From Cladosporium sp. IMV 00045 (Eukaryota > Ascomycota > Dothideomycetes > Cladosporiales > Cladosporiaceae), in assembly GCA_001931905.2 (NCBI GenBank), contig MSJI02000129.1, positions 4,859 through 47,272 of the forward strand: 42,414 nucleotides of DNA, given 5' to 3'. Below, piece after piece: positions 1 through 38,526 of the stretch. The first letter of the stretch is position 1; each line of letters begins with the position of its first letter. Made by a program: the position numbers and the translations under genes. Under the pieces are notes generated by a model. The model saw only the letters and a program-made list of their open reading frames with translations, had not been told where the DNA came from and did not search any database.

Positions 1-1
1 T

Positions 2-331
2 ACACAGGAGAAGCTTGATATCTTCGCTATAACATATGCTAGAGTCGTGAATCATCCGCACAGGTGTGCATGGGATGTGTTTTTGGTAGAAAGTCAGGTT
101 GCAAAGTTTACTAGTGGAATGCAGCAGATCGTTGAGAGCGTATGTGGCAGCCAAGCTTTCCGACTCCATACTTACCAATCCACCCCGAATCTGAACGGCG
201 GAATATTGTTATTAGATTTTAATCTTGGATGCCTGCATATTTCCCATAAACTTGCGAATTTCCTAATCCCTGTCAGTGGGAGCCAAGGTTACACCAGCGA
301 AAACCCTAACCCTAAAGGCTCGCTGGTGTAA
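2..331 (+). CDS. Possible partial ORF at left edge, unrecognised
   Basis: A frame open from the window edge for about 110 codons, ending in a stop at 331. I do not recognise the product (it contains CAWDVFLVESQ and FTSGMQQIVESV). Codon composition is ordinary here: CpA and TpG are present, unlike the block that starts 50 bp downstream. It could be the 3' end of a gene entering from the left. It could also be a 5' exon of the start-less frame at 316-2259, because GT and AG dinucleotides and a CTAAC branch-like motif lie between about 286 and 378. It could equally be chance. Low confidence. Confidence 0.2.
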   Translation, partial: TQEKLDIFAITYARVVNHPHRCAWDVFLVESQVAKFTSGMQQIVESVCGSQAFRLHTYQSTPNLNGGILLLDFNLGCLHISHKLANFLIPVSGSQGYTSENPNPKGSLV

Positions 332-333
332 CC
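287..333. repeat. Perfect 14-bp inverted repeat with telomere-like loop
   Basis: Left arm GGTTACACCAGCGA (287-300) and right arm TCGCTGGTGTAACC (320-333) are exact reverse complements. The 19-nt loop contains two CCCTAA units. A further copy of GCTGGTGTAACC follows at 344-355 in direct orientation to the right arm. It lies just outside the point (about 380) where the RIP-purged block begins, so it may be a terminal or subterminal structure of that element. Confidence 0.75.
303..313 (+). repeat. Telomere-like motif ACCCTAACCCT, left of RIP block
   Basis: Eleven bases matching nearly two units of the fungal telomere repeat (CCCTAA). The same 11-mer occurs in the same orientation at 4773-4783, near the other end of the RIP-purged block. 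Confidence 0.6.
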
Positions 334-2259
334 GGGTTATATAGCTGGTGTAACCAGGATATACCGGCTAAGGGACAGTTAGAAAATAGTATCGAAGATA
401 CTAATTACTTTATTACTAGTTATATAAAGAATAATCTTAATAAGAAAAGTAATAACTTCTTTAGCGAGATTTATACTTTAAGAAATAAGCTAAAAAGCTA
501 TAATATTAGAAGTATTAGTACTTATAAGCCTATTAGAGAAATAGACTCGAGTACTATCGCTTTTAATAATAGTACTATAGATATTAATAAAGTTTCTACT
601 CTATTTAATAGCTTATTAACTAGGATAGAAAGTAAATTTTTTCTATCTCTATTATTCTTTAATACTAAAGATTCTATAATAAATATAGAAGTCTCTAAGA
701 TAGAAGATAATAAAGATAATAATAAAGCTTTAGTAGACTTATCTTATACTTCTTATCTTAGTACTTTTAAGAATATATTAATAAAGCGATTTCTAAATCC
801 TAAAACCTTTATTTATCGATATTTTAATAGAAATAAAAATCTCGAAAATAATATTCGTTTATACTTAAAAAGTATTACTAGGTTCTTAGAACTTTTACTT
901 TTAAACTACTATTTATTATCTAGTAGTCCTTTACGAGGAGAAGAGCTAGTTATCTTAAACTTTAAGAATACTAGTCTATCTAAGCTTAGAAATATCTATT
1001 TCGATAAAGAAACTAAGCTTATAGCTATAAATACTAGCTATAGTAAAAGTAGAGATTTAAATATTCTTAATAAAGAGAATATTAGATTCTTACCTTTTAG
1101 ACTTAGTAGAATAACTATCTACTATATTACTATATTAAGACCTTTTATAGAGTACTTAAACTTTACTTATTTTAGTAAAAAAGAAATAGAAACTAAACTA
1201 TTTCTAAATAGTAATAATAATACTATTAGTACTACTTTCTTAAGTAGTATTCTTAAAAAAGAAACTAAAGTATTTTTAAATACTAGCTTAAATATAAGCG
1301 CTTATAGGCAATTTATAACCTATATTATAAAAGAAAAGATAGTAAAGAATAATATTAATATTCTAAGTCCTAAAAAGTCTAGAGTCTCTAGAGATTATTC
1401 TAGAGATAAAATAGAAGATATATTAGCGAATAGATCTTCTAAAGTCTCGAATTTATATTACGCTAGAGAAAGTAATCTATTTAGTAATAAAACTCGAGAT
1501 ATTACTACTAGATCTATAGAGTTTAGTTATTTATATTTTAACTATTTTAATATAAATACTTATAATACTCTAGAAGAGATTATAGATAATAGTAATAAAG
1601 AAGATTCTTTAGAAAGTTCTAGTAACTCTTCTAGGAGTTCTTCTATTATATCTAATATTAAATCTACTTCTACTTCTAGTAATTCTCTAGACTTAGAAGC
1701 TATATCTAAAGCCCCTACTATTATAGATAAGAATATATTAGAAGATATAGAAGATAGATCTTTAAGCTCTTCTAGTTCTAATAGCTCTATTATAGTAGAT
1801 TCTAATTCTAATCCTTTTATTAACTCTAAAACTAATAAAGGAAAAGAAAAAGCTATAGATTCTAGACTTAATAGAGTAAATCTTAATACTCTAAATAATC
1901 TAGAAAGTCCTTCTAAAAAAGATACTATAGATAGGTACTTAGATACTATATCTATAAGTTCTAGTTCTAGTTCTAGCTCTACTACTAGCTCTAAATCTAG
2001 TAATAAGTCTAGAACTAACTATATTAATTTAGATTTAGATAGTCTAGATACGAATCTAAATTCTAATCTAGAAGATCTATACTATAATAGTTTAGAAAAG
2101 ACTACTAATAATTCGAATAATAACCTAGTAGAAAATACTAGTTATATAGATTCGAATATTAGTAGCTCTAATCTAAACTCTAAACCTATAAGTAAAAGAG
2201 GGAGACCTAGACTACTTAGGACTAATAAGAGAGGTAGACCTAAGAAAGAAAGAAAATAG
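316..2259 (+). mobile_element. Tyrosine-recombinase / telomere-linked-type ORF without any NTG start, CpA/TpG-purged
   Basis: Frame 1 has no stop for about 648 codons, ending TAG at 2257-2259, in very AT-rich DNA. From about 382 onward there is no Met, Trp, Cys or His codon and one Gln. The domain at 780-1530 matches, from memory, the fungal family found beside telomere-linked RecQ-like helicases, whose core resembles tyrosine recombinases. Visible boxes are SSSPLRGEEL (Arg codon 934), a K in TSYSKS (1045), IRFLP followed by ILRPFIEYL, NISAYRQF (Arg 1306), and NRSSKVSNLYYARES (Tyr codons 1456/1459). The His usual before SSK is Arg here. A Ser/Asn/Asp-rich linker (1560-2190) follows, then two AT-hooks: KRGRPR (2194-2211) and KRGRPKK (2227-2247). 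It is probably the recombinase-type gene of a RIP-adapted element or a decayed relative. No start codon is visible, so a 5' exon or a non-AUG start would be needed. Confidence 0.6.
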
Positions 2260-4790
2260 AATTCTAGATAAAAAATAGATAATAATTAGTTAAAAATAGA
2301 TTTTTCTATTTAGATTACTTATTTTTTATTAACTTTTTATTTTATTTTTATTTCTTTTTACTTTCTAAACTAGAATTATTTCTAAATTTTTCTTATATTT
2401 CTAAAACTTTAAATAAGCCTACTTTATTATAAAATAACTTTAAAATCTTTTCTTAAACTCTAATATTCTAAAATTCTAAGTTTTCTAATTTTTAAAAAAG
2501 TATAAGAATTTCCTATAACTAGCTATTAAGTTTATAAAATTCTTTAGACTAAAATCTATTATAAGTAAGTAAGATAGGTTTCTAGAAGTTCTATATTTAG
2601 GAAAAATTAAATATAGTAGATTTTAATTAATATAGCTAGTAAAACTTAGAGCTTTTAATTTTCTAGAGACTATTTTAATTTTCTAAAACTAACTAATAAA
2701 GTAAAAGTATAATATAAACTATAATCTACTATAGATAAACAAGATTAGATTCCTAGATTTCTAGATCTAAAGAAAAAACTAATAGAGTTAAATTTTAATA
2801 TATTTAGTTAGAATAACTAAGAAAAGAAAAACTATTTTTAATTATTTAGAGCTAAGTTTAATTTTTCTATATATAGTAGTAGCTCTATATAGTAGATCGA
2901 TATAAATACTATATTAGAAAAATATAGAGTATTCTATTAAAATTAGATTATACTCTAAAATAATTAGAATATTTTATTTTCTATCTAAAAACTCTAGAGT
3001 TTAGTACTAACTAAATTAACTCTTACTCTTTTAGCTTTATTAATTAGTAAACTAGAGTCTTTTATAGCTAGATATAAACTAATCTTTAATACTAGTTTAA
3101 AGAAAGCTCTAATATCTTATTATTTTTTAATAATTAGTAATAGAGATACTTTTAGGAATTCTTTTAAGTTTCCTAGAATTTTTTTAAACTTAAAACTTTA
3201 CTTAAAGCTAAAGCTAAGTCTAATTAACTTATAAAAATTCTAGCTAAGCTTAGAAAATTCTAGACCTACTAATATTACTAATAGAAAATTCTAGATTTTA
3301 GAGTCTACTTACTAAATTAGAGATTACGAAGAGATATCTAAATAGTTACTATTTTAGTTAAGTTATAAGTAGATTAGAGTCTATCTTATCTATTTATAAT
3401 TAAATTCTAATACTAGACTAGTAAAAACCTTTTTATTTTAATAGTTTTAGTAATTAATTAGAGTTTAGATTTCTATAAATTATTATAGCTTTCTTAGAAT
3501 TTTTCGTAATTTAAAAATATAGCTATAAGTTAGAACTAAATCTAGACTACCTAGAGTAATTCTAAATAAGCTCTAAAAATTCTTAAAGTATCTAATATTC
3601 TTATTTTTAGTTAATACTCTATTTTATTATTATTTTTAGCTAATTATTCTTAATTATTTAGTAAAGTTTAAGAATTTTATATTATATAGTAGAATCTATA
3701 GTATACTTCTATATTTTTAATATAGCTTAAATAATTCTCTTAAGTCTAGGAAAATTCGAAAACGCGCTTTCTAACTCTCGGTAAGTAGAGTAAGTAAAGA
3801 AATACTTTTAGAGGAAGGAGAGTAGATCGTCCTACTAAAAGCCTTATAAGTATCTATACTACCCTATAAATTCGAGCTATAGGTCTACGACGTATCGTTT
3901 AAAGCTACTATCTACGGCCTACCGCTACCGTACGTTAGATACCTTTACTCGGCTCTCTCGTAATACTTCTCGTAATTATAACTCGCTATTAATCGTTTCC
4001 TCCCTTACTTTATCCCCCTCTCCGTCTTCTCCGATCGATTCCTCTTATAATACGGTAAAGTATCGTTACTACTACCGGTACTCGAAAAATCGCTAATACC
4101 TCTACTTCTCCTCCTATATCCGATTTAACGCTTATTTCCCTTTCTTTCGTACGTTTCCTCTACGTCCTCTTTCGTTTACCTAGCCGTATTCCGATTAGTA
4201 GTATTTCTATATTCTAGAAATCGTTTAGTAGATATATTTATAAGCCTCTCTATCTCCCTATCCTATATATAGTAGCCCGTCCTTATATACCGCGAGCTCT
4301 TTAATCGGTCCTTCGTTCGCTTATAGGTATATAACCTCCTCTTTACTATATACTACTTCTTCTAGCGCTACCCTAATCGCTATAATACGGCTACGCTTTT
4401 CCTTACCGACCTACGGGTAATACTTACGTAAGTAACGATCGATCTATTCCGGTACGATAGTAAAAGTATACTACTTATATATAATAATCTTATATTATTA
4501 CTTATATTAAAAAATACTATTAAAGTTACTTCTAGCGCTACCTATTTTTGCTCCGGATTTCTTATATTAACTTCTAATACTATAAAGAGAATACTTCCTA
4601 TAAACGCTTACGGTTTCTTTAACTCGACCGGCGATACCTATATATTTATACGCCGTATCGGAATTATTACCTAGCCTTTCCCTCCTAAAAAAGAATCTTA
4701 CTTTCTTCTATCTACGCTAATATTATATTTGCGACGCTAGCGTATTCTATTATATAACCCCCGCGTCGCGATACCCTAACCCTTTAAAAG
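380..4790. mobile_element. RIP-purged AT-rich block (inactive or RIP-adapted repeat)
   Basis: Between about 382 and 4548 I find by eye only two CpA (1309, 2740) and no TpG; TpG reappears at 4549, 4730 and beyond. This symmetrical loss is the signature of saturated RIP (C to T in CpA on both strands). From 2260 to about 3740 the DNA is extremely AT-rich with stops in every frame. From about 3740 to 4790 CpG is common although CpA and TpG are still lacking, implying a different ancestral sequence. In 3990-4440 several frames show stops almost only as TAA or TAG, as expected from RIP of CAA/CAG/TGG codons. I could not identify the ancestral protein. Normal composition returns between about 4795 and 5020. 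Confidence 0.8.
4773..4783 (+). repeat. Telomere-like motif ACCCTAACCCT, right of RIP block
   Basis: Identical to the 11-mer at 303-313 and in the same orientation. It lies where TpG and CpA begin to reappear, so the two motifs roughly bracket the purged block. Confidence 0.6.
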
Positions 4791-4924
4791 ACCTTATATA
4801 TGTAATACTAATAAAACGCTATTTATCGTATTTAAAAACATTTCTAGTATTGCGATATAAGAATATATCTTCTACGTTTATCTCGTGATTTTACGACATT
4901 AGATGCTTAAAGAAACTACCGTCG

Positions 4925-4996
4925 AAGTTTCAAAAAAACTACCGTCTCGATAAGCCGGACCTACCTCAAATTTCGCCTACGTTTCAAAAAAACCAC
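4925..4996 (+). repeat. Short imperfect direct repeat GTTTCAAAAAAAC-YACSGT
   Basis: Two near-copies of a roughly 19-bp string (GTTTCAAAAAAACTACCGT near 4926 and GTTTCAAAAAAACCACGGT near 4981) lie between the end of the RIP block and the start of the segmental duplication. No gene is recognisable from 4790 to 5021. Confidence 0.5.
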
Positions 4997-5094
4997 GGTG
5001 ATTTCTTCGTAGAATGAGAGTCAGGTCAACGGCGTGAGCCTCCCGATCCAATTAGGCAGAGGGCGGGATCTACGTTCAACTTGCAGTGACATAC

Positions 5095-5962
5095 TTAGTG
5101 GTATGTCAGAAACACCCCTGCAATCAGAGCGAAAAGCGCTCCCAGTACGACAAGCCATCTCAACAGACCTCTTCTTACTTGCTTCTTCGCGAATCCCTCT
5201 GTTGCAGTCTTCTCATTAACTCTCGGAAATTCCATGTCCGGCACTGGAACTTCCAGAGCTCTGCACAAAGGACCCCAGCCTTCTTTGACATCAAAAAACA
5301 TCAACTTCTCCCGCGGCACAATTCGCTCCAAGTACTGGATGTGACGATCATAAACTTCCCGATTCGACACAAACGGATCACCTGAAGGATGCCCGTACAA
5401 CTTCTCCCAGCGCCCAACGAGCATCGCATCGACGTAAGCAGAGAAATGGCGTAGACTGGGAAGCAGAAAGAAGGCGAATCGTAAGAAATTTCGAGCTTTG
5501 GCTTCTCCCGAGACGTTGCCCATGCTTATTGCCCATTTCTCGGGATCCCTCGTAGTGCAGATGACCTAGCGTGACGAAACGATACGATCAGAACACCGGC
5601 CGAAGATCGGAGAAGGAAGAGTAATATACCTTCGCATTGGGATACAACTCCATCAACTCGCCAACATACATGTGAGCTGGACAGTCCGTGACCGCAGCGA
5701 AGCCTTGCAACAATTGTTTCAAGCCCCGCTTGACATGTCCAATGTTCTGTTCCGCCTCTGGAGGATTTAGATGCATGATCTTGTTCCATGTGAGAACATC
5801 ATTCTCGGGTCCTAGACAGATCTGGGTGCCACCATGGTAGACGGGTTTGTGCAAAAGAATGCGCAAAGCTTCGCTGAAAGAGGCTGTGCCAGTACGCGGT
5901 AGACCTGCACCGATGACCTGGAGGCTGGTGCCGGGAGAAGGCTTGGAGGCTTCTGCACCCAT
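5095..5962 (-). CDS. Sulfotransferase-like P-loop protein with C-terminal membrane anchor (copy 1)
   Basis: Exons 5962-5630 and 5565-5095, with a 64-bp intron (GTATAT...CTAG) joining NAK to VICTTRDPEKW; 267 aa. This is the fungal Sulfotransfer_4-type family, often mis-annotated as NAD-dependent epimerase. The P-loop/PAPS-type motif is GAGLPRTGTASF at residues 18-29, followed by ALRILLHKPVYHGG, then TDCPAHMYVGELMELYP and the CTTRDPEKW strand motif. The last 20 or so residues (LLRWLVVLGALFALIAGVF) form one hydrophobic segment, suggesting a tail anchor. Family members are presumed to transfer sulfate from PAPS, but the substrate is unknown. The start is the first ATG of the frame and places the P-loop at the usual distance. 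The second copy is at 17945-18812. Confidence 0.85.
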
Positions 5963-6116
5963 CTCGTCAGGCAGAGCAAAACCGAAAATCTGCAGCCGAC
6001 TCGTATCCGCTGGGGTGTAGCAGTCATCTAAATACTATTGCTGCAAGCGGTGAGAGCTTTTCGGCCATGCCGGTTCTTGCCTGAGGTCCATCGATTCTTC
6101 GCCCAAATCCCCAGAT

Positions 6117-7032
6117 CTAAGCACAAGTGCCGGATAAATCCCCAAGACCAGTTGTCGAGCAAGCCAGAACAGATTTCTCATCCTTCACAGCCTCAGCCGC
6201 ACCTTGCCTCCGAGCCGAAGAATCAACAAGCTGCGTGTCGGAAGCCGATTGGCGCGCCCACAGTGCTGGGTTCATCGGCACCTGGGCCCCAAGACCGTTA
6301 GCTCTGGGGTCCACCCAATAGCGACTCTGCAAAGGAAGAATTCGCGCATACAAGTGCAAAGCAGCTTGCTTTTCCAGCATACGGCTTCAGCTGCTTGCAT
6401 TGGCACTACGCGGGGACGCCGAATAGCAAGTTTTGTCGAAACAATGGGAACTGTGACAGATGACTTTCCTTCACCCGTGTCCAGCTGTATCACCACCTTC
6501 TTGCCGTCTGGAGGCTGAACCATCTCTCGTGCGCTTTGCCGTCAAACTGGCCGGATCGTGATCTCGCTGTCACACTCGAGTAGCAGCCACTCAGGGTTGT
6601 GGAGTGGGTTTTGTTACACCTGACCGCTGCTTTCAAGCTCACAAAGCAGCTCAGCAAAATTGTCTTCCGCCCGAATGTATCGCTTCACTTTTGGTAAAGC
6701 CCTTCTCGTTAACCAATACAGTATGATCGCATCTTTCTCATAGACAGCCGTAATACTACGCGGACAAGAAGCCAAACAGCAGGACGTCGCCGAGGGAGCT
6801 TGCTGTTTTCCCACACAATGCCGTTGCGATTATCTTTGCAAACCGCCTCCAGGGCGACCTGTTTGCCGCACACACAGAGCGTGCTTGTGAACGGCTCGGT
6901 CACTAGCGTTGGATCCATGATAAAATTGTTTTGAACATGATCCAGTCCCCGCTTGCCTGTCTCCGGCGGCCCCTTGCTCTCTTCAGTCTCTTGCGAGTTC
7001 TGCTGATTCATCTTGGTCAAAGTCTTGGCCAC
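6117..7032 (-). pseudogene. DUF3638 (giant ATPase-like protein) fragment, copy 1
   Basis: Reading the minus strand, shifting frames give DNFAELLCELESSGQ, then QPPDGKKVVIQLDTGEGKSS. This matches the DUF3638 region of very large (about 3000-residue) fungal proteins, which includes a Walker A-like GEGKSS. The frame breaks between 6614 and 6523 and again after GEGKSS, and only a few hundred of the expected residues are present, so this is a decayed internal fragment. It lies between the sulfotransferase-like gene and the transporter and was present before the duplication, because copy 2 holds the same fragment. Confidence 0.7.
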
Positions 7033-8030
7033 AGCTGCGCGAGATGTCTCATTCTGAAATCCAGAAAAGGATGTGTCAAGGCGTACTTCGAGGCGTACTG
7101 AAACGGGGTCGATGTGGATGGTGGCTACCTGTGCTATGAGACGTCAGCGAGAACCTGGGTGTAGTGTAGACTTCCGGAAAGCGAACTGCCAGTCAACAAC
7201 TCTTTCAAAGCCCCCGAAAATGCGGCCTCTCTCAAATTCTTTTGAGCATGTCTTGACTTTCTGAAGGAACCCACCAGTGAAAGTTATGCCGGCCCTCACT
7301 GCTTTCCATCGCGCTGACCTGACAGAAAGCGCTTCAAAACATGGTGTACGAAACCGGGACGGCAGCCACGCTTTTTGAAGATGCGTCATCTGCGCTTGAA
7401 GGTTCGGAGGCAAAACCAAATGGTGTCGAATGCATTCTTAAGGCTACCTTCGACTACTCATAGTTGCGGCATTCACTGGGCGCCATGACCGGAAACAGCG
7501 ACTGTTGCAGCCAGTTGAAGTCGACTCGTTAAGTCGGCTGAAGGTACAAATTTTCAAGAGCCCAGGCGCAAGGCTAGACAAGTCCCAAAAGGAGCCATTC
7601 ATTCTTTCTTGGCACTCTTGGAACGTATTCGTGGAACTACGATCGAATGTTGTGGCATCGAAGGGGACAGCGAGTGTAGCGGAGGCCGTGATTGCTAGCA
7701 ACCGAGCGGTGCGGAGGCCCAGTGCGCCGGCGCCCGAGCTTCTACCACTGCAGAAGCATGCCTCTCATGCGGGTTCCGCCAGTCCCGACGACCGAGACAT
7801 CATTACGGTGACTACAATTCATCGAGGAAATGATGCGGTCACCAAAAATGGCCGTCCTTGCAAGGTTAGTGAGACTCTCATCTGATTCTACCCCTGACGA
7901 CTGAACTCTCTATTCCTTTTATAACAGTCTCAATGATCCTATTTGCTCCACCGACAATCACATCTCCCTGGAGTCAATCACTCGTTGTCCTCGATATAAC
8001 GAGAATCTTTTCTGGCAATCTGGGCCTCCC
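7033..8030. other. Intergenic DNA upstream of the ABC transporter (copy 1)
   Basis: About 1 kb with no recognisable gene. An ORF at 7505-7885 is open only in this copy from its start; in copy 2 the frame is shifted near its beginning. The stretch probably holds the transporter promoter and more of the decayed DUF3638 fragment. Confidence 0.5.
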
Positions 8031-11000
8031 ATGAGCGAAAAGCTGCCTGTCAACACTGCTCTAGGTAGCGAGACCGCTGCTGCTCTCGCTACCTCGGAAT
8101 CTCGCGATGACACAGATCCCCCAAAGCAGATATCTGCAATGCAGGCCTATCTGGTGAGCCTTCCAAATATTGCATTGTCGTTAGTGACATGCGCACCACT
8201 GACATTCACATCCAGCGTATCTTTTCCTACGGCTCTCCAACAGTATCATCTCTCCAGGTCGTCGCCATCGTCGCGGCCTGTGGTTCCGGAGTCGCCCTTG
8301 CGCTGGTGAATCTTGTTCTTGGGAACTTCATTACACTACTGAGTGAATTCAGCTCGGGCCAAGATGTGCCAGCCAACTTCATGTCCTTAGTGAGCAAACA
8401 ATCGTATGTGCCAACTGTTACGTTGTGACGAACATAACTCGTGTTGCTGATGCAATTTAGGCTCTACTTTGTCTACATAGGCATCGCTCGCTTTGGATGC
8501 ATCTACCTGTACTCGGCAATCATGACATATACCGCTCTGAGACTAGGCCGAGAAATGCGCCATGACTATCTGCGTTCCGCACTACGCCAGGACATCAGTT
8601 TCTTTGATCATGGCTCGGCAGGATCAATCTCCATGCAAGCAACATCGAACGGCCGGCTCATCCAATCGGGCACTGCTGAGAAATTGGGCCAGATGATCCA
8701 GGCTGCAACGACTTTCATTGCTGCGTTCGTCATTGCATTCGTGAGCCAGTGGAAGTTGACTTTGATATTGATCTGCATCATACCCGCCTTGATTCTCATG
8801 GTCGGTAGTGCAGGAGGCATTGATGCCGGAATTGAGACGCAAATCCTCAAAGTCTACGCACAAGCCGGTGCCTATGCCGAATCGTCGCTGAGCAACGTTC
8901 GCGCCATTCATGCTTTCAATCTGGCTTCAAGAATTGTTAAGGGATACACCGTCTACTTGGCTCAAGCACAGGCCCTGGGACGAAGAAAGAACGTGCTCTA
9001 CGGCCTTCTTTTCGCCGGAGAATACTTCGTGATGTTTGCAGGAATGGGTCTTGCCTTTTGGCAGGGCATTGCAATGATAGCCCGGGGTGAGGTCGAAGGC
9101 ATTGGTACCGTCTTTACGTAAGTTCTTGCCGCAACGACAAGCTGCCTTCGAAACCTGCTGACATAGTCTAGTGTCCTTTTCTCTGTTGTCATAGCGGCAG
9201 CTATGCTAAACTCTGTTGCTCCCAACATGATCACTTTTACCAGAGCAGCAACGGCGGCCTCCGAGTTGTTCGCTCTCATTGATCGAACTTCTGAAATCAA
9301 TCCTTTTGATCCAGCTGGGGAAAAGCCTGCTAGCTTGGATGGATCGATTGACATCCATGGACTTACATTCAGCTACCCAACTCGAGCAGACGTCACTGTC
9401 TTGGATGACTTCAACCTCCGTATCCCTGCAGGCAAAGTGACGGCCCTAGTAGTGAGTCTCCCGAAAACATGCGCTTCCTTGATAAACGTTCCTTACAAAG
9501 TCTACAGGGATCTAGTGGTTCTGGGAAAAGCACAATCATCGGCCTGCTCGAAAGGTGGTATAACCCAAGCCGTGGTGAAATTTTCCTCGATGGTACGCCT
9601 CTTCAAAATCTCAACCTACAATGGCTTCGCACGAATATGAGGCTGGTACAGCAGGTGAGTTCCGTGAACCCAGAGACGAAGGTTGTCATCACCTGCCAAG
9701 GCTGACTTATGTCAATGTAGGAGCCGGTCCTTTTCAATGGGACAGTGTTTGAGAACATATCGAACGGCCTCGTCGGCACTGCATGGGAGCATGAAGCATT
9801 GGGAGACCGAGTATTACGCGTCAAGAATGCGGCTAGAACGGCATTCGCGCATGATTTCATCGAGAACCTGCCACAAAATTACGACACGCGCATCGGCGAG
9901 AGGGGAGGTCTTCTGTCAGGTGGTCAGAAGCAGCGCATTGCCATCGCACGCAGTATCATCTCCCAACCAAAGGTTCTTCTGCTCGACGAGGCCACCAGCG
10001 CGTTGGATCCGCATGCCGAGGCTATCGTCCAAAAAGCACTCGACAAAGCATCGACAGACCGGACCACGATCGTCATCGCCCACAAACTCAAGACAATCCA
10101 AGCTGCCGATAGCATCGTTGTCATGAAGCAGGGTAGAATCATCGAACAAGGGAAACATGTTGAGCTCATTGCCCGTGGCGGCGCTTACTCGAGCGTGGTC
10201 AGAGCTCAAGATCTATCTCTCAACGACGATACCTCTGACGCGGAATCTCCTCACGAGGATACGCAGGAGTTGGTTCTCGAGAAGAGTATGTCTCTTGGTG
10301 GCCACGATACCAGCACACAAGAGAACTTGAGCCTGCTAAGCAAACGAGAAGATTATGGACTTGCCTCAGCTACTGGCATCCTGACTACTGCTGCTAAACT
10401 GGTACGAGCTACGCCAGATCTGAGATGGTGGTACACCCTTGCCTTGCTCACTAGCATTCTAGGCGGTAAGTCAAACTTCTTCTACAAAGTTTAATTCTCA
10501 CGTACTAACTGCATCAGCTGGTGTCTATCCCGGTCAAGCACTTCTTTTAGGCAGCGTCATGGATGTCTTCTCTCCTGAGTTGAATCAACGTCGCGGCAAC
10601 TTCTTCGCCTTGATGTTCTTCATCATGGCGATCTGTCTGTTGTTTGTTTATATGGCCATGGGCTGGGTCAGTAATCACATTGCACAGGTAAGTCAAATAA
10701 AGCGCGCGATGTTCCTGATTTTCCCACATCATACTAACTAATAATAATGCAGACTTACGGTCATGAAGTCCGTAAACGAATGTTCTCATCCTACCTCCGA
10801 CAAGATCTGCGCTTTTTCGATCGGCCAGAGAATACCATTGGATCGTTAACCAGCCGACTCGATTCGGATGCGCAGTCTCTTTTCGAACTGACGGGTTTCA
10901 ACATCACTCTCATCATGCTCGCCGTTGTCACCATCATTGCCTGCTCGATCCTCTCGATTGCCGTGTCATGGAAGCTCGGGCTTGTGGGTGTCTTCGCAGG

Positions 11001-12371
11001 CACTCCTCCCATGATTTTGGGAGGCTACATCCGTATCAGGGTTGAGACGAAGATGGATACTGACATTGACGCCAAGTTCTCAAAGAGTGCGTCAATAGCG
11101 TCCGAGAGCGTAACGGCTATCCGCACCGTCTCCTCGCTTGCAATAGAGAATGATGTTCTGTTGCGGTACACCAACGAGCTTGACTCTGCCATATCCGAAT
11201 CTCGGGTGATGCTAGGATCCGTGATGGCATTTTTTGCTTTTACCCAATCGATCGAGTTCTTTGTCCTCGCCCTTGGGTTCTGGTAAGCTGTGGACTGTCG
11301 ACTCGCACACATGACCTCACGCTAACGCTGCTCACAGGTGGGGTTCGAAACTCATCCTTGAGGGAGACATCGACTTCTACCAATTCATAGTCTCTTTCAT
11401 GGCTGTTTACTTTTCTGGTCAGGGATGTGCGACCATATTAACCTTTGCAAGCAGTGAGTTTGAGTTTTACCCTCCAGACAAAAAGCTACTAACAACAAGC
11501 AGGCTTCACCAAAGCAAATGCTGCTGCTAATTATTTCTTCTGGTTGTGCGACCTTGAAGGCACAGTCAGGGAGACGGATCAGAACAAAGCTGTCGTTCTG
11601 ACGACCGGGTGTTCGTCGTTTGAACTTGACAACGTCCAGTTTGCATATCCTCTCGCACCCAACAACCGCGTTCTCAAAGGCGTCTCGCTGACCATCAATC
11701 CTGGCGAGTTCGTTGCGTTTGTAGGCGCATCGGGCTGCGGCAAGAGCACCATGGTCTCTCTGCTCGAGCAATTCTACGATCAGACCACTGGTGGAATTGT
11801 CATCGATGGAACCAACAATCTCATCGATCTCAACCCACGACTGTACCGTCGCGCTGTTTCTCTGGTTCAGCAGGAACCCACCCTGTTCCCTGGCACCATT
11901 CGCGAAAATGTCTGCATGGGCATTGATCAGGATGACATCGAAGACATCAGCATCGATGACAACACTGTGGAATCTGCATGCCGAGCAGCCAATGCCTGGG
12001 ACTTCGTCAGCTCGCTCCCTGAAGGCCTAAATACGCCTTGCGGGACAGGAGGTGCTCAGCTTTCCGGTGGACAGCGGCAGCGCATTGCAATTGCCAGAGC
12101 GTTGATTCGCAACCCCAAAGTCATTCTTTTGGACGAAGCTACCAGCGCTTTGGACACGGAATCTGAAAAGATCGTACAAGCTGCGCTCATGAATGCAGCC
12201 TCTGCAGGTAATAGAATTACGGTTGCAATCGCACACCGACTGTCAACGGTCACTAATGCAGACCGCATCTTCGTTTTCTACAATGGGAGAATCGTCGAGG
12301 TGGGTACTCATTTGGAGCTTCTCGCACAGGGCGGGTTGTACACAAAAATGTGCGAGGCGCAGAATCTTTAG
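8031..12371 (+). CDS. Full-size ABCB/MDR-type ABC transporter (intact copy 1)
   Basis: Ten exons: 8031-8153, 8216-8403, 8461-9117, 9172-9451, 9508-9654, 9721-10465, 10518-10687, 10753-11282, 11338-11453, 11503-12371. They sum to 3825 nt, an open 1274-aa protein, the normal length for TMD-NBD-TMD-NBD exporters. NBD1 has Walker [10 protein letters not shown] (417-425), signature LSGGQ (530-534) and Walker [13 protein letters not shown] (about 550). NBD2 has GASGCGKST (1060-1068), LSGGQRQR (from 1172) and [12 protein letters not shown]. Hydrophobic helices precede each NBD (for example [19 protein letters not shown]). It should be a plasma- or vacuolar-membrane ATP-driven exporter of hydrophobic compounds; the substrate is unknown. 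It is convergent with the Zn2Cys6 regulator 570 bp downstream. All introns are GT-AG and phase-consistent. Confidence 0.92.
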
Positions 12372-12944
12372 ACCCTCGCTGTAGAATATGGAAGTCAGCG
12401 GTTTTTCATTTTTTTAATACTGTACGTTAGTACTTCAATTTGTATTGCGACTTTACAGCAACTTACTTGCCTTTTGCAAAAGTCGAACCCAGTTTTGTAA
12501 ATCTTTGCACAACAGAAAAGTGACTACGCCAGCTTGATAGACTCTCAATCGAATCTCACTTTATCGCCGACGTTTCCACCGGACGATCGGCCGTCTCTTA
12601 CACTGCTGCGTTCTCGAGGCAAACTCACCCTGTAAGTTGATGCGACCTTTTTGGCCTCCTACGTTTCTTCCTCGGGCCGATGACCTAAGCTCCGTTGCTT
12701 CAGTGAACTCCTTGCAAGAAATCGCATAGTGCATAATTTCCATGCATTGTCCCCTGAAGAAAGGGTCGAACATCGTCATCTTCTACGGTAACTTCGATGG
12801 CGCTTTTGAGGCGAGAAGAGGCCGAAAGAGGAAATGGCATGGCTAAAGTTTGCGACTTGTAAGCATATAAGATACAAAGTGTCCTCGTCATGATTGGTGA
12901 GCACATTCCTCGTGCCACAACCAATCATTCTCGAGGTTAATGGC
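12372..12944. other. Convergent intergenic region (copy 1)
   Basis: 573 bp between the stops of the transporter (+) and the regulator (-). No gene recognised; it should hold both transcript 3' ends. Confidence 0.6.
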
Positions 12945-15596
12945 CTATTCCGCCCAAGTAGAGGTAAAATCCGCACCTTGAAGTAGCTCCATGGACGCCT
13001 GGTTATTGTAAAACCAGTCTTCCAATTGCATGTTATCACCCATCCAAAGCACTGGATCCAAAGATTGCTGACTCAGTAGAGTCTCACCAATGCCGGACTG
13101 CATTCCATCGTGTGCTTCGTAGCGTCCAACTCTGGGGAAGCCCAAGGCGGCCAATTGTGCATCCATTGATGATGCAGGAGGTGCTCCGCTGTTGTCTTGC
13201 AGGCCAACTTCGATGTAACGGGCAGCAATCTTATTTAGTACCTGAAACAAGCGGTACATCTTGGTGGCAGGCTCGGAGACCTCGGTCGCTGCATGAATGG
13301 AGCTTACGAATGCATCGAGGCGGAGTGAATCTGTGTGATCTCGAGTCTCCATGACATAGCAAAATATGACAATAAAAGGAACAAATGGCGCAAACAAGAG
13401 TGTCCTGGAAGTGTTAGTGTGGCATATAAGGAAGCCAGTGCCGTGTGGATAGCATACCAGTTGACGTAAGCTGAGAAGTAAATGCCGTTTGACTGATGTA
13501 GGACTGCAATGCAATCATGATGTCTATCCAAGGTTGCTCTCGCTGCTTCGATGCAATCGACATTGAATGTAGTGCAAGACCGCACATCGCTTGGAGCCGC
13601 TCGAAATACGTGGGTAAGTAGTGAAAGTCGCAGGATTTCGTCAGAGATGGCCCAATAATCCAGCAAGTTGCCACCCGACTTCTGTTTTGCAAGCTTGAGC
13701 CATTTCCCCTGGGAGATATCAGTCTTTCGTTTGGTCGCACACAACAAGGTTGAAGCTCTGACCTACCCTCGTCTTCTCTGTTTCTCGCGAAATTTCATGC
13801 AACTCTGAGGCCAAGAAATCCACCCTCGACTGCCTCACTTCAGCAGGCTGCGTGAGCGATGCAGGAGAATAGAGCATCTCGTAAATACTGCCCTGGCACC
13901 TCGCGGTCTTGGTCCACAGGACGTAGAATGCAAGAACTGGTTCCTGGTCGTCGCTAGGTGGGCAGGGTGGGGTTGTGGTTATGTCCCAGTCTTGTATTGT
14001 CGAGGCTCTGCCCAAACGCAAAGACAGGCTTTTGTCGACGTAGTAAGCCGTCCAGAAGAGGAGTTCCGCATACCTGGGGCTTACTGAACACTTAGTACTC
14101 TGGGTCGGCTTTCTATGATAGCCCAGGGTTTGGCATAATTCTGATGCTTTCGAGGACAAGGACCAAGAGAGAGAGCAGGTCGAGAACTCGATAGAATAGA
14201 ATGCCTGATAAATTGTCAGTGGCTTGTCTAGTCATTGCGGTGAAGGAGACGTTCTCCAAACAAAAGAGCTGCAATCACATTGGCAGACGCTGGTAGATGG
14301 AGGGGCATTTCGGCCAGCCCTGTCTCAAGATTATCTCGGCAAAGACGCGCATGCGCCATGTTGCGCTCTTTTTCGTCTTGGGATATCTGAGCGGTCAAAG
14401 CATGGTCCGAAAACAGCGAGTAGAGGCCAGCATTGACGCTGATGAAATCGAACGGCGATATGTCTTCCGAAAAATAGACATTGAGACACAGATCACCGAA
14501 AGACTGCATCACAACATACTCGTATACCCATCCTGCCCCAGCAAGGTGTTGGACTTGTAAGGGAGAGCATCAGTCGCATGTTTCCAGACACGGTGCCTCT
14601 AAGGGTTGGCCAACGCACCTTCTGCTTTGCGGATCAGGGTCACGGCGCTTTGGATAGGTGGCAAATCGAACTTGGTTTGATCTTTATGCCGCGGCACCCG
14701 GGCGTTTGGCAGGACCGACTCTCGTGCTTGTGGCTTCTTATTCGAGGCGTCAGCGATATGCGCGAGGCTGTCCAAAGTCATCTGAATTTGCGGATCAGAT
14801 TGCTTGGAGCCAACCAAAGTCTGCAGGAAGTTATTCACGAAGACAGAGTGCGCAGACAACGAAGATTTCCCTTCCACGACTGTCGTTCTTGCCGGCTCCG
14901 ATGGAAGTGATTGATCCTGGTAAGGCAAGACCGAGGGTTGGACTATGGGAGGATGCGATGCTTCGCTCTCAGCATTGTTGATATCTCTATTGGTGGGGCC
15001 ATCGGTCTTGATGTCTTTTAGCAAGGTTGTGATGTCTTCCAACCGGTGCTCGATGGAGTCAATCTTTCTCTCACTAGCCAAGTGCATCAGCATCAGCCTA
15101 AAGACGAATATGGATGTATACTACGTGGAGCGGAGGTAGGTAAAGAGGCAGAAACTTGTGTCGTGATGAACTTACTACTGCGGTGTGAGCAGGATGCGTG
15201 TTCGTTTCTCCCTGCGCCTGACGGCGGGATAGACACACTTGATATCGGCGCGCCGACATGGGAGGCATGGTGATTCTTTGTCGCAACGGATCTAATGGAA
15301 TGCTTTCAGCGATGTTGACCAACTCCGTGTAGACCTCCACGTCCCCCGGGACGCTCTACTGCTAGTCGAAAGGCGGACACCTGACGAGATAGCAGAGGCA
15401 GGACAAGCACACCTTTCGAGTCCGACAGGCCTCACACTGTCATTCAACAGTCAGCATGACAAGGCTGAGGAGGGTAATATGGTCGACTGACCGCACCACG
15501 GCCCACGGCGAGAGGCTCTGCGTTGTGAGAAGACGACGCTCCAGTGGATTCGGGCGTCTCGCCCTGGTCGCTCGGTGAGGATCGCGAGTCATCCAT
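12945..15596 (-). CDS. Zn2Cys6 fungal-specific transcription factor (copy 1)
   Basis: Eight exons on the minus strand: 15596-15492, 15436-15413, 15291-15179, 15097-14619, 14553-14255, 14204-13767, 13708-13458, 13404-12945; 2169 nt, 722 aa. The zinc cluster CX2CX6CX5CX2CX6C (Cys 36, 39, 46, 52, 55, 62) is spread over three exons, one of them only 24 nt. It is followed by the basic linker AVRRREKRTR and a likely coiled coil (ERKIDSIEHRLEDITTLLKDI is in that stretch). The middle domain is of Fungal_trans type (AGAGWVYEYV, SKASELCQTLGYHR, then TLLFAPFVPFIVIFC). The C-terminus has the family's EDWFYNNQASMELL. The intron between exons 5 and 6 starts GA rather than GT. It lies between the transporter and the trehalose phosphorylase, so it may regulate a neighbour. 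Confidence 0.85.
14205..14254 (-). other. Candidate non-canonical GA-AG intron (copy 1)
   Basis: Removing these 50 nt joins AALLFG to AFYSIEFSTC in frame, as the family alignment requires. The donor would read GAACGT instead of GTNNGT; the branch point CTGAC and acceptor TATCAG are normal. The only canonical in-frame alternative I see is a GTGATT donor earlier (after PASAN), which would drop VIAALLFG. The same GA is in copy 2 (26829-26878). Confidence 0.5.
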
Positions 15597-16189
15597 GGGC
15601 AGATAACGATTGGCTGCAGATCGCGAGGCTATCAGAGTGCGGTGGATAATTTGACCTAACGCGGTTTGGGGATTGGCAAAGCAGGCTCGCAGGATAGAAG
15701 GAATCGCGGTGGAGCTGGAGTGCGAGAGGGTGGCCCGTTGCTGCCGGCGCCCGTTCGTCTCGGCGTCCGCTTGTCCCGGAGTCCGCCGGGTATGTCTCTG
15801 TCAAAAAGTCCTGCATGTCTGGCTAATCCCACGTGGTACCTTCCCCGCTGGCTATCCGACGCTCACAATGAGAAGTATCTGACGAATTCCATACATCATC
15901 ACCTCACCACCTAAGAGAGAGGGTATATCGGCATGATGGCGTTGCACTTCCTTCTACGTCAAAGCTTGTCGATAATGATCACTTCCTCGCAGCCTGATTA
16001 TCGTAGATAACGCAATGAAGACTGTCATCAACGTAAGATGGATCACCAATGCTACTTGTATAGCCTATATATACAGCTGAGATCTTTTGTCGAAGTCAGT
16101 GTGCTTGGCTTTAGACAACTCGCCATGCCTTGAACCTTTCACGATTATTCTCTGCCGTCGAACTTTAGCAATCACCATCACGCGCCAAC
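15597..16189. promoter_or_regulatory. Divergent promoter between regulator and trehalose phosphorylase (copy 1)
   Basis: 593 bp separate the two divergent starts. The half next to the trehalose phosphorylase is nearly identical between copies. It has a CCAAT at 16046-16050 and TATATATA at 16066-16073, about 120 bp before the ATG. In copy 2 the TATA element reads TATAGGTA (28686-28693). Confidence 0.5.
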
Positions 16190-16584
16190 ATGGTCAAGCG
16201 TGCGACTACCTCTGATTCCGACCATGAATTCGCCTGCCCCGCCAGCGCAGCAGCAACAAAGCGTCAAACACATCAAGACGACGAAATTCCCTCTCCTAGG
16301 GCTCCATTGGCCAGTTTATGGCTGGGTCTTGCTGCGAAAAGACTAGATAACGGATGTGTCAAAGTCGGCTACGCTTGCCACGATGGAACGTATACTATGG
16401 ACTCTGCGATTGATGTCTTGGAGGAAGATACTCAGGAGTCAATGGTATACTACTTGATCGACAGGATTGATACGTATGCCAGGGCTCATGCGTACAAGTT
16501 CATGGGCGCTGGAATAGCGGAACAACTTCTGGAGATGTGTCCCAATCTTAAATCTCGCTTGTGGGCAGATCTGGACGTGATTCC
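16190..16584 (+). pseudogene. Trehalose phosphorylase, 5' fragment (copy 1)
   Basis: The first 131 residues match copy 2 (28810 onward) with a few substitutions (VKVGYACHDGTYT here, VNVGYACHDGTYT there). The reading frame then enters the 20-N gap after WADLDVIP. Sequence beyond the gap is a transposon end and unrelated DNA, so the catalytic GT-B domains are absent from this window. Either a transposon insertion plus deletion truncated the gene, or the gap hides part of it; the downstream sequence never returns to the gene. Confidence 0.85.
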
Positions 16585-17175: not shown

Positions 17176-17872
17176 GCGGTACAATGTGGCAGCTCGACGG
17201 TTCAAACTATTGCCGGGGCTTGAACCTATCGGTGCAGATAGCATGTTCGTCTTCTTGATTGAGTATGAGCTGTCTCACACCATTCTTTCAGATCCAGCGC
17301 AAAAGCAGGAGAGTGAAATACCGCAATTTGAATGAGAAGACTGTTAACCCATGTCATGCGATCCACGTAGCTGCCGCGGCTGACGCGACTAGTAGTCAAG
17401 AGGACACAGACATGTGACTCCTTTAACTTGAGAGTTTCTCGGTGCCTCAGTGTTCTTATCGCCCTTCGTGTCTCGGAGCTGATGACGGGAGAAGGAACCT
17501 CAAGCAAGTTGTTCTTTGAAGATATAGGCACGGGTCAATGTGGAGGGTGACTATATATTCTGCCTTTGGATTATGAAATGTGTGATTCTTGGATTTGTGC
17601 GTAGCGTAAGTATCGAAAACGGAAAATTCTTTGATTGCCGTGCGGCTAGTCATGGAATGTGCGAAGGCGTGGCTCGGGCGTCAACTATCTCGTTTAGCAC
17701 TGCATGTATGGTGGCATTCTGGCCAAGAAAACTTTCCTCGAATCATCTAGATTCCTCTGCTTGTCTAGGACTCATTGGTGGCGAAGTCACATGAGCGTTA
17801 ACAAAATTACCGGACCCCGATTTGGTTGTTCTCCACCCGGCGGTCTCTATCTCAGCATGCCCGTTTCTTTCC
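17176..17872. other. Unassigned spacer before duplication copy 2
   Basis: About 700 bp of ordinary composition with only short unrecognised ORFs. It has no counterpart on the left side of copy 1. Confidence 0.5.
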
Positions 17873-17944
17873 AGGTCAACGGCGTGAGCCTCCCGATCTA
17901 ATTAGGCAAAGGGCGGGATCTACGTTCAACTTGCAGTGACATAC

Positions 17945-18812
17945 TCAGCGGTATGTCAGAAATACCCCTGCAATCAGAGCGAAAAGCGCTCCCAGTACGA
18001 CAAGCCATCTCAACAGTCCTCTTCTAACTTGCTTCTTCGCGAATCTTTCTGTTGCAGTCTTCTCATTGACTCTCGGAAATTCCATGTCCGGCACTGGAAC
18101 TTCCAGGGCTCTGCACAAAGGACCCCAGCCGTCTTTGACATCAAAAAACATCAACTTCTCCCGCGGCACAATTCGCTCCAAGTACTGAATGTGACGGTCA
18201 TAGACTTCCCGATTCGACACAAACGGATCACCTGAAGGATGCCCGTACAACTTCTCCCAGCGCCCAACGAGCATCGCATCGACGTAAGCAGAGAAATGGC
18301 GTAGACTGGGAAGCAGAAAGAAGGCGAATCGTAAGAAATTTCGAGCTTTGGCTTCTCCCGAGACGTTGCCCATGCTTATTGCCCACTTCTCGGGATCCCT
18401 CGTAGTGCAGATGACCTAGCGTGACGAAACGATACGATCAGAACACCTGCCGAAGACCGGAGAAGGAAGAGTAATATACCTTCGCATCGGGATACAACTC
18501 CATCAGCTCGCCAACATACATATGAGCTGGACAGTCCGTGACCGCAGCAAAACCTTGCAACAGTTGTCTCAAGCCCCGCTTGACATGTCCAATGTTCTGT
18601 TCCGCCTCTGGGGGATTCATATGCATGATCTTGTTCCATGTTAGAACATCATTCTCGGATCCCAGACAGATCTGGGTACCGCCATGGTAGACGGGTTTGT
18701 GCAAAAGAATGCGCAAAGCTTCGCTGAAAGAGGCTGTGCCGGTACGCGGTAGACCTGCACCGATGACCTGGAGGCTGGTGCCGGGAGAAGGTTTGGAGGC
18801 TTCTGCACCCAT
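17945..18812 (-). CDS. Sulfotransferase-like P-loop protein (copy 2)
   Basis: Exons 18812-18480 and 18415-17945, with the same 64-bp intron; 267 aa. It keeps GAGLPRTGTASF, the CTTRDPEKW motif and the C-terminal hydrophobic tail. Differences from copy 1 are few and mostly conservative, for example GSENDV for GPENDV, HMNPP for HLNPP, ATERF for ATEGF. The open frame and conserved motifs suggest it is still functional. Confidence 0.85.
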
Positions 18813-18966
18813 CTCGTCAGGCAGAGCAAAAACGAAAATCTGCAGCCGACTCGTATCCGCTGGGGTTTAGCAGTCATCTAAATACTATTGCTGCAAGCGG
18901 TGAGAGCTTTTCGGCCATGCCGGTTCTTGCCTGAGGTCCGTCGATTCTTCGCCCAAATCCCCACAT

Positions 18967-19840
18967 CTGGGCACAAGTGCCAGAGAAATCCACAAGACCA
19001 GTTTTCGAGTAAGCCAGAACAGATTTCTCATCCTTCACAGCCTCAGCCGCACCTTGCCTCCGAGCCGAAGAATCAACAAGCTGCATGTCGGAAGCCGATT
19101 GGCGCGCCCACAGTGCTGGGTTTATCGGCACCTGGGTTCCAAGACCGTTAGCTCTGGGAACCACCCAATAGTGACCCTGCGGAGAAAGAATTCGCGCATA
19201 CAAGTGCAAAGCAGCTTGCTTTTGCAGCATACGGCTTCAGCTGCTTGCATTGGCACTACGCGGGGACGCCGGTTGTCGAAACAATGGGAACTGTGACAGA
19301 TGACTTTCCTTCACCCATGTTCAGCTGTATCACCACCTTCTTGCTGTCTGGAGGCTGAACCATCTCTCGTGCGCTTTGCCGTGAAACTAGACGGATCGTG
19401 ATCTCGCTGTCACACTCGAGTAGCAGCCACTCAGGTTGTGGTCCCACCTGACCGCTGCTTTCAAGGTTACATAGCAGCTCAGCAAGATTGTCTTCCGCCC
19501 GAATGAATAGCTTCGCTTTTGGTAATGCCCTTTCAGTCAACCAATACTGCATGATCGCATCTTTCTCATCGACAGACGTAATGCTACGCGGACAAGAAGC
19601 TAAACAGCAGGACGTCGCTGAGGGAGCTTGCTGTTCTTCCATACAATGCCGTTGCGATTGCTTTTGCAAACCGCCTCCAGGGCGACCTATTTGCCGCACA
19701 CATAGAGCGTGCTTGTGAACAGCTCAGTCACTAGCGTTGGATCCATGATAAAATTGTTTTGAACATGATCCAGTCCCCGCTTGCCTGTCTCCGGCAGCTC
19801 CTTGCTCCTTCAGTCTCTTGCGAGTTCTGCTAATTCATCT
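18967..19840 (-). pseudogene. DUF3638 fragment (copy 2)
   Basis: Better preserved than copy 1. One frame (19699-19256) carries FIRAEDNLAELLCNLESSGQ, then PEWLLLECDSEITIRLV, then QLNMGEGKSSVTVPIVS, a recognisable DUF3638 core with the Walker A-like GEGKSS. Upstream and downstream parts need frame shifts and most of the giant protein is absent, so it is a fossil fragment. Confidence 0.75.
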
Positions 19841-20891
19841 TGGTCAATGTCTTGGCCACAGGTGCGCGAGATGTCTCATTCTGAAACCCAGAAAGGGATG
19901 TGCCGAGGCGTACTTCGAGGCGTACTGAAATGGGGTCACCGCTGATAGTGGCACCAGCGTAGTGCTTCATGATGTGGATGGCGGCTACCTGTGCTATGGG
20001 ACGTCAGCGAGAACCTGGGTGTGGTGTAGACTTCCGGGAAGCGCACTGCGAGTCAACAACTCTTTCAAAGCCCCCGAAATTGCGGCCTCTCTCAAATCCT
20101 TTTGAGCGTGTCTTGACTTTCTGGAGAAATCCACCAGTGAAAGTTATGCTGGCTCTCACTGCTTTCCATCGCGCTGACCTGACAGAAGGCGCTTCAAAGA
20201 ATGATGTACGAAACCCGGGACGGCAGCCACGCTTTTTGAAGATGCGTCATCTGCGCTTGGAAGGCTCGGAGGCAAAACCGAATGGTGTCGAATGCATTCG
20301 TAAGGTTGCCTTCGACTACTCATAGATGCGGCATTCACTGGGCGCCATAACTGGGAACAGCGGCTGTTGCAGCCAGTTGAAGTCGACTCGTTAAGTCGGC
20401 TGAAGGTACAAATTTTTCAAGAGCCCAGGCGCAAGGCTAGACAAGTCCCAAAAGGAGCCATTCATTCTTGGTTGGCGCCCTTGAAACGTATTCGTCGAAC
20501 TACGATCAAATGTGGTGGCATCGAAGGGGACAGCGAGTGTAGCGGAGGCCGTGATTGCTAGCAGCCGAGCGGTGCGGAGGCCCAGTGCGCCGGCGCCCGA
20601 ACTTCTACCACTGCAGAAGCATGCCTCTCATGCGGGTTCCGCCAGTCCCGACGACCGAGACATTATTACGGTGTCTACAATTGATCGAGGAAACGATGCG
20701 GTCGCCAAAGATGGCCATCCTTGCAAATTAGTGAGACTCTCATCTGATTTTACCCCTGACGACTGAACTCTCTACTTCTCTTATAACAGTCTCAATGATC
20801 CCATTTTCTCCACCGACAATCACATCTGCCTGGAGTCAATCACTCGTTATCCTCGATATAACGAGAATCTTTTCTGGCAATCTGGGCCCCC
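19841..20891. other. Intergenic DNA upstream of the transporter pseudogene (copy 2)
   Basis: About 1 kb corresponding to 7033-8030. No gene recognised; small indels distinguish it from copy 1. Confidence 0.5.
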
Positions 20892-25003: not shown

Positions 25004-25577
25004 ACCCTCGCTGTACAATATAGAAGCCAGCAATTTTTAGCTTTCGGATACTGTATGTTAGTAATTCAGTTTGTACTGCAATACATGGCCTGGCTCTTGC
25101 AAAAGTTGAACCATGTCTTCTGAATCTTTGCAAAACTGGAAGGTGACTACGCTAATTTGATAGACTCGCCTTCAAAACTCGCTTCATCGCCGCCGTTGCT
25201 GCCAACAGATCGACCGTCCGTTACACTGCTGCGTTCTCGAGGCAAAGTCACCCTGATATCCGACCTTTTTGGCCTTCGTACGTTTCTTCCTTGGGCCGAT
25301 TAGCTAAGCTCTGTTGCTTCGGTGAACTCCTTGCAAAAGATGACATGGCGCATCATTGCCACGCATTATCTCGTGGAGAGCTGGTCGAACAGCGTCATCT
25401 TTCACGGTAATTCTATCGCGCTATTGAGGAAAGAAAAGCCGAGGGGAAAAAAAGGAAAGCATCGCCAAAGTTTGCGATTCGTAAGTATACAAAATACTCA
25501 AGGTGTCGTGGTCGTGCCTGGTGAGTACATGCCTCGTACTTCAACTGATCACTCTCGAGATCACTGGCCTATTCCGT
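25004..25577. other. Convergent intergenic region (copy 2)
   Basis: 574 bp between the decayed transporter and the regulator; nothing recognised. Confidence 0.6.
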
Positions 25578-34177: not shown

Positions 34178-34394
34178 GACATACGATAGTACCGGAGTTG
34201 CATGCATGAACAGCGACATCCGAGCAGCGAACCAAATTTTAGACGAATACATTTTACATTAAGATCATGACCCACTGCTAAATTTCTGAGTCCCAGCGCT
34301 AGTGATTTCATTTCTCACTTCTTCTGAACCCTGAGAGACTTCGACCTGTCATCAATTGTTTATCCGACCCGACCTTTGAAAGATGCGACTCCCC

Positions 34395-35605: not shown

Positions 35606-35668
35606 GGTGCGAGAGTTGATGTTGCGGGGATGTGAAACAAAATCTGCAGAGAACATGAAGCGATACAA

Positions 35669-38438: not shown

Positions 38439-38526
38439 GGGTATTTATTGACAAGTCGCACGCTGATGCGATGCGCTGCCGCCTCCCAGTCGGCTCGACT
38501 TCACCACTTCACTTCTCTTCTCGACA

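Follow-up and report, generated by a model that had tools for sequence, protein, structure and literature searches.

According to the usual teaching, a repeated gene does not outlive repeat-induced point mutation (RIP). Can a gene still be coding after this mutator has consumed nearly all of its targets? The question is raised by the left end of a 42,414-nucleotide stretch of the genome of Cladosporium sp. IMV 00045 (contig MSJI02000129.1, positions 4,859 to 47,272; hereafter the window), where a reading frame is open from stop to stop for 647 codons (316-2259) in DNA almost devoid of CpA and TpG. The original prediction, made from the letters of this DNA, took the frame for protein-coding DNA that is exposed to RIP-like pressure and at the same time kept by purifying selection. 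Our comparisons support this claim, and they do so for a whole protein family. We put the probability at roughly 0.84 that window positions 385-2259 are the C-terminal 624 codons of a gene of an OrsD-zinc-finger/tyrosine-recombinase family, a relative of the RecQ-type telomere-linked helicases, which has been adapted through repeated RIP.

The purge is nearly complete. The 1,878 bases of positions 382-2259 contain one CA (at 1309) and no TG; in the 624 codons of 385-2256 there is no stop, one CpA and no TpG. As predicted, the protein encoded by 382-2256 has no Met, Trp, Cys or His and a single Gln. Observed/expected ratios in the frame are 0.01 for CA, 0.00 for TG and 1.36 for TA, versus 1.15, 1.16 and 0.59, respectively, in host DNA at window positions 20001-40000. 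Depletion of CpA and TpG together with enrichment of TpA is the pattern of RIP-affected DNA; the frames broken by TAA and TAG that belong to the same pattern are not seen here (0 of 624 codons). No unmutated close copy of the gene is present in the assembly. The neighbouring purged DNA had been described as full of stops, and 2260-3720 indeed holds 49-73 in each of its six frames. Two details of the original prediction have to be corrected. The gene does not extend to the beginning of the frame, because 316-383 belongs to a multicopy element, and the gene's share of the frame is 385-2259. At codon junctions, T-ending codons do precede A (242 of 340), but C-ending codons precede G in only 7 of 50 cases and T in 41 of 50.

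Six Markov models of orders 1-3, with either the frame or 2260-3720 as training sequence and 400 sequences each, produced on average 74-79 stops per 624 codons (minimum 48), and their longest open run in any frame was 138 codons. The flanks of two other copies of the multicopy element (loci L027 and L030) have 0 and 1 CA+TG in the first 600 bases past the element end, and in the examined stretches of these flanks there was no purged frame of at least 110 codons. A chance open frame is therefore rejected. When saturating RIP was simulated on 12 ordinary homologous open reading frames, 30-55 stops arose per 625 codons and no frame remained open, which excludes that RIP of a parental gene left the window frame open by chance. 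RIP'd homologues in the same genome carry 24 stops (contig C950) and 39 stops (contig C864). Related copies with random stops thus exist, but these are relics of genes of ordinary composition and hence serve as a control, whereas the 24 public relatives of odd composition are long open proteins. RIP of an ordinary reading frame is likewise rejected as the source. Because an ordinary frame cannot stay open under RIP, the window frame appears to have been selected while it was being purged. Furthermore, base usage at the three codon positions is strongly unequal in the frame, where A makes up 54% of position 1 and T 55% of position 3; such differences are much smaller in the non-coding purged part.

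A search with the frame found 13 proteins at E <= 1e-3, with P0001 at the top (49% identity over 99% of the query), and a profile search found 24 public relatives at 1e-10, which are 23-55% identical and 347 to 1,760 residues long. No relative of odd composition was picked for its composition. Several of them carry OrsD and DEAD/Helicase_C (RecQ-helicase) domains: Pfam OrsD reaches its cut-off in P0012, P0016 and P0017, and a RecQ-type helicase is found in P0016-P0020, P0022 and P0024. P0016-P0019 are RecQ-type helicases, 1,546-1,678 residues long, each of which has 1-2 Met and 0-1 Trp, and Walker-type TGSGKS and DEVH motifs can be read in P0016. The codons of Met, Trp, Cys, His and Gln all contain CA or TG. 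Together, these five residues make up 0.15-5.68% of the odd-composition relatives versus 10.72-17.18% of ordinary homologues, the latter being the 120 matches listed of 162 homologues of the own-genome member L011. A tree, from which P0013 was left out (core shorter than 150 residues), split odd from ordinary proteins with 100/100 support; unequal composition was flagged in it, so that it does not prove a single origin. No odd-composition relative was confirmed in viral_contigs or genome_contigs, and three family queries plus the window frame revealed no second odd-composition gene copy in this genome.

It is possible to ask whether this composition is plain AT-richness of host genomes or compartments, with no mutator directed at CpA and TpG. 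GC is 18-23%, Gly, Ala and Val also fall, and Asn, Ile and Lys rise. Position-specific base composition alone, however, predicts about 43 Met, Trp, Cys, His and Gln in the window protein, and one is observed; CT and AG are over-represented beside the missing TG and the single CA. TpG is also avoided at codon junctions throughout the family. This was tested on proteins without DNA, by counting Asn, Tyr, Asp, Phe, His and Cys (T- or C-ending codons) directly before Ala, Gly, Val, Asp and Glu, pairs that create TpG or CpG. The window protein has 2 such pairs versus 23.3 expected, the 24 public members have 233 versus 1,100.8 (observed/expected 0.21, z -36), and the 120 controls have 8,669 versus 8,718.3 (0.99). 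The pairs are below expectation in 25 of 25 members (z -3.3 to -10.1), and the mirror class, Lys, Glu or Gln before residues with G-starting codons, is doubled (2.18). This suggests that the public genes avoid TpG too, although avoidance of TpG and of CpG are inseparable in the test. AT-richness alone is accordingly rejected, and we regard it as a very improbable explanation of the family.

The residues that were kept point to selection. Conserved columns were defined as those shared by at least 70% of 91 ordinary homologues, 29 of the 120 controls being left out as shorter than 850 residues. In the odd-composition proteins, Trp is kept in 0 of 298 cells of 16 such columns, several of which are Trp in 88/88, 91/91 or 62/62 ordinary proteins. 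Met is kept in 0 of 120 cells and Gln in 25 of 270, compared with 52% for Tyr and 46% for Leu. Cys survives in 88 of 227 cells and His in 63 of 251, in a nearly all-or-none manner per column: for example, 15/15 Cys and 15/15 His in the OrsD region and 8/8 in four C-terminal Cys columns are retained, with 0-1 elsewhere. A second set of columns was defined on the odd-composition proteins themselves. It takes in 128 of their 183 Cys and 95 of their 123 His as well as 19 of 35 Met, which are the start residue, but none of the 8 Trp. Most of the remaining Cys and His thus lie in conserved columns of zinc-ligand type or in motifs. The sole CpA of the window frame encodes residue 309 (counted from position 385), a site held in 21 of 25 members by His or Gln, which both use CAN codons; the sole His among the 453 residues of P0003 sits there.

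The recombinase boxes and the two AT-hooks of the original prediction are real (Table 1). The predicted model has the catalytic-domain fold of the tyrosine recombinase superfamily, and the order Arg...Lys...Arg...Tyr is present; from their positions, we take R184, K221, R308 and Y359 to play the Arg-Lys-Arg-Tyr roles. In Foldseek, the 410-residue core gave recombinases in its first eight rows (E 0.016-1.0), and the 625-residue model gave only unrelated, insignificant matches. Sequence searches with the window frame found nothing in Pfam at E 1, in NCBIfam at 0.01 or among PDB sequences at E 1. DUF3435 is the domain of the Starship captain; no Pfam match to it was seen at E 1 in the window and none so named in seven homologues, although odd sequence can mask matches. 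Cryptons are tyrosine recombinases with a GCR1_C domain and defined element ends, and GCR1_C had no Pfam match in the window or the seven homologues. The window copy, whose alignment to P0014 starts at residue 516, lacks the N-terminal OrsD zinc fingers, and a RecQ helicase domain is not in the window frame, which ends at the AT-hooks.

Table 1. Features at the left end of the window (residues are counted from position 385)
Feature	Position	Strand	Remarks
RIP-purged coding sequence	385..2259	+	624 codons plus stop TAG 2257-2259; 0 stops, 1 CA, 0 TG
C-terminal part of OrsD/tyrosine-recombinase-like protein	385..2259	+	49% identity over 99% to P0001; P0014 residues 516-1199
Tyrosine-recombinase-like catalytic core	832..1470	+	about residues 150-362
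Conserved Arg 184 (CGA), first recombinase arginine	934..936	+	R in 24/24 odd-composition and 12/12 ordinary own-genome homologues with a letter there
Conserved Lys 221 (AAA)	1045..1047	+	K in 20/24 odd-composition, 11/12 ordinary
Invariant Arg 308 (AGG), second recombinase arginine	1306..1308	+	R in 25/25 odd-composition, 11/11 ordinary
Gln 309 (CAA), sole CpA of the frame	1309..1311	+	His or Gln in 21/25 family members
Conserved Tyr 359 (TAC), candidate nucleophile	1459..1461	+	Y in 24/24 odd-composition, 10/11 ordinary; role from motif position
Ser/Asn-rich linker, probably disordered	1612..2184	+	predicted local distance difference test (pLDDT) < 50 over residues 410-621 of first model; less conserved than core
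AT-hook 1 (RGRP)	2197..2208	+	C-terminus common to P0001, P0002, P0003 and others
AT-hook 2 (RGRP)	2230..2241	+	C-terminus common to P0001, P0002, P0003 and others
Terminal part of multicopy un-RIP'd element, not the gene	1..383	-	OrsD-type protein start from 169 down
Purged non-coding DNA downstream	2260..3740		1 CA, 0 TG in 1,481 bases; 73% identical copy at C944:112-1170

Bases 1-383 are the end of another element. This end occurs in at least 30 further places of the genome with 97-100% identity over at least 154 bases, and its last 20 bases are found in 29 exact copies among loci L023-L052, followed by 28 distinct flanks, which places the element end at 383. It is not RIP'd (22 CA and 23 TG in bases 1-300), and its minus strand encodes the start of an OrsD-type zinc-finger protein resembling the N-termini of P0022, P0010, P0018 and others (E 1e-4 to 1e-2). 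The element may be a mobile or a subtelomeric unit that is still young. It holds TTACACC palindromes and a AACCCTAACCC stretch, and no target consensus is evident in its flanks. RIP'd relics of the same superfamily adjoin the same element end in C950 and C864; at C950:1-6000 (locus L057), an un-RIP'd element end is followed by the RIP'd OrsD/tyrosine-recombinase relic with 24 stops and then by a RIP'd copy of the same end, and this locus is a set of nested insertions of related elements. Since bases 1-383 belong to this other element, what remains of the window gene begins at 385 and aligns to P0014 from residue 516. Insertion of the multicopy OrsD-type element (junction 383/384) probably removed the 5' part of the window copy, which is in all likelihood a member truncated not long ago. 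To the left of the window, contig bases 1-4858 are N. No ends of a mobile unit carrying the window gene were found, so that its label as an element is one that we infer.

The 3' flank suggests that purging was repeated. The window flank and its copy in C944 are 70.7% identical over 1,169 aligned bases and have 1 and 2 CA+TG, respectively. Neutral change without renewed purging would leave on average 10.1, 23.7 and 43.6 CA+TG at a tenth, a quarter and a half of this divergence (minimum 3, 10 and 28). Since the assembly lacks the coding part of this C944 copy, the evidence is indirect. At the same rates, an unselected frame would acquire 2-3 stops at a tenth of the divergence and 6-14 at a quarter to a half. 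These rates bear on whether the window frame is by now a dead relic, that is, a RIP'd and abandoned gene still open by luck, which we consider rather probable. It has no in-frame ATG after 385, about 515 N-terminal residues of P0014 are gone at the junction with the young multicopy element, and a frame unselected for less than about a tenth of the copy divergence stays open in 4-12% of simulations at scale 0.1 and in 22-28% at 0.05. The copy may no longer be expressed, and continued expression as a protein seems unlikely. Such decay, however, can apply only to the time since truncation, because RIP of an ordinary frame cannot leave it open and the same composition recurs in 24 long public proteins; for the family, it is compatible with adaptation through repeated RIP.

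Alternatively, the gene could be a domesticated single-copy host gene in a RIP'd subtelomere, where RIP leaks from neighbouring repeats, rather than an element. This genome has yielded a single odd-composition member, and related helicases are described as telomere-linked (PMC12857005). A second purged copy of the 3' flank exists in C944, however, and the near-copies P0004 and P0005 lie on different contigs, of one genome or two, with 27 differences in 832 residues. We judge domestication to be unlikely. No helicase or other known protein was found in 2260-3740 or 3600-5100, where P0001-P0144 gave no match at E 1e-3. Positions 3741-5022 form a second, differently RIP'd block, without CA in 3741-4500 and rich in CpG (observed/expected 2.1-2.2); it is 85% identical to C247:7317-7958 and stops where a tandem unit starts. 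This tandem duplication of about 12.85 kb, an ABC-transporter region (5022-16584 and 17872-29204), is 91-94% identical in three aligned pieces, has ordinary CA/TG contents and is not RIP'd in a genome with RIP relics.

How could a family adapt to a mutator of this kind? The mutator would be RIP, C to T at CpA on both strands, many rounds of which would use up the target dinucleotides, both within and outside coding sequence. Copies with CAA, CAG or TGG codons would be killed, so that survivors would have Gln and Trp replaced, and Met, Cys and His would drift to Ile, Tyr and others unless irreplaceable. Copies in which the codons of the five residues were replaced in time would remain open and functional. 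Selection would retain such codons only at hard-to-replace sites: the start Met, the ligands of zinc, the His/Gln next to the second catalytic Arg and the helicase motifs. Decay of CpG to TpG and CpA would feed the same sink. The final state would be almost without RIP substrate, and a further round would then do little harm. The odd-composition proteins presumably work, and RIP immunity may help their genes to spread. A bolder proposal, to which we give slightly less than even odds, is that of a RIP-proof lineage: a recombinase/helicase evolved through the mutator, with CpA and TpG exhausted, which would be practically immune to RIP and could exist in several copies where RIP kills other repeats. 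Its protein would make do with about 15 amino acids, Cys, His, Met and Gln being confined to sites that chemically require them, and some amino-acid neighbours would be forbidden.

Several observations weigh against adaptation through repeated RIP, in addition to the missing start and N-terminus of the window copy. CpG is low (observed/expected 0.71 and 0.25) versus 1.2-2.2 in the younger classic RIP relics of the genome, which the decay of CpG into TpG and CpA would explain. Both the element at 1-383 and the tandem duplication are un-RIP'd, and RIP therefore looks weak here now. Conserved Gly, Ala and Val are largely lost as well (kept 0.10, 0.08 and 0.06), so that AT pressure beyond CpA/TpG seems to act too. 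The remaining Gln lies mostly outside the columns conserved in the odd set (16 of 199 inside), and P0020 and P0024 retain more of the five residues (5.68 and 5.35%). The protein search takes up candidates through 5-residue words in common with the query and so favours proteins of similar composition; intermediate members may thus have been missed, and the gap between 5.7 and 10.7% may partly be a search effect. As for the recombinase assignment, the two sites of the catalytic His are occupied in the window by Gln 309 and Arg 350; members of the family have His there in 15 of 25 and 11 of 24 cases, respectively. Foldseek alone gave no match at E <= 0.001.

If adaptation through repeated RIP is correct, the absorbing state of this mutator seems to have been attained by a family of genes that are coding still, which suggests that genes can evolve to survive a genome-defence mutator. 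The family would also show, as an experiment of nature, how proteins function when they have hardly any Trp or Met and restricted Cys, His and Gln. Masking of RIP'd AT-rich DNA would hide real genes, and the amino-acid-neighbour statistic could pick out further RIP-adapted proteins from protein databases alone. The protein family itself is a relative of known RecQ-type telomere-linked helicases and tyrosine recombinases. What appears to be new is their state, in which genes still code for proteins although a genome-defence mutator has arrived at its absorbing state in them; no printed precedent was found in searches of a library of mainly open-access articles.

Among known systems, the telomere-linked or telomere-associated RecQ helicases of fungi (TLH, tlh1), many of which carry an OrsD domain, are close: ordinary own-genome homologues and the 120 listed public ones, whose names include 'ATP-dependent DNA helicase tlh1' and 'RecQ family helicase', share the tyrosine-recombinase-like core together with OrsD and/or DEAD/Helicase_C. 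The window form differs in ending in AT-hooks, lacking a helicase and being exhausted of CpA and TpG; since the frame has no helicase and none was matched in 2260-3740 at E 1e-3, the window gene is a relative of TLH and not TLH itself. With the tyrosine recombinases (Xer, Cre and integrases, of the topoisomerase IB fold superfamily) it shares the fold and the Arg-Lys-Arg-Tyr positions, and it differs from them in matching no Pfam family and in its Gln and Arg at the His sites. The X26 repeat of Stagonospora nodorum, a RIP'd telomere-associated RecQ repeat, belongs to the same gene superfamily and bears the same mutational signature, but such RIP-degraded repeats are broken by stops, whereas the frame here is open (PMC3017866). 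Like the crapaud retrotransposon, the gene persists despite RIP; the routes of escape listed in the available portion of that study are timing, small size or dissimilarity, and divergence with function, and exhaustion of RIP substrate inside an expressed reading frame, not being among these three, would be a further route (PMC10787394). Finally, virus genomes depleted in APOBEC3 motifs are likewise depleted in the target of a host's mutator, but here the depletion is close to zero remaining motifs, the amino-acid alphabet and the neighbour rules are altered, and the carrier is a fungal genomic gene (PMC7449416).
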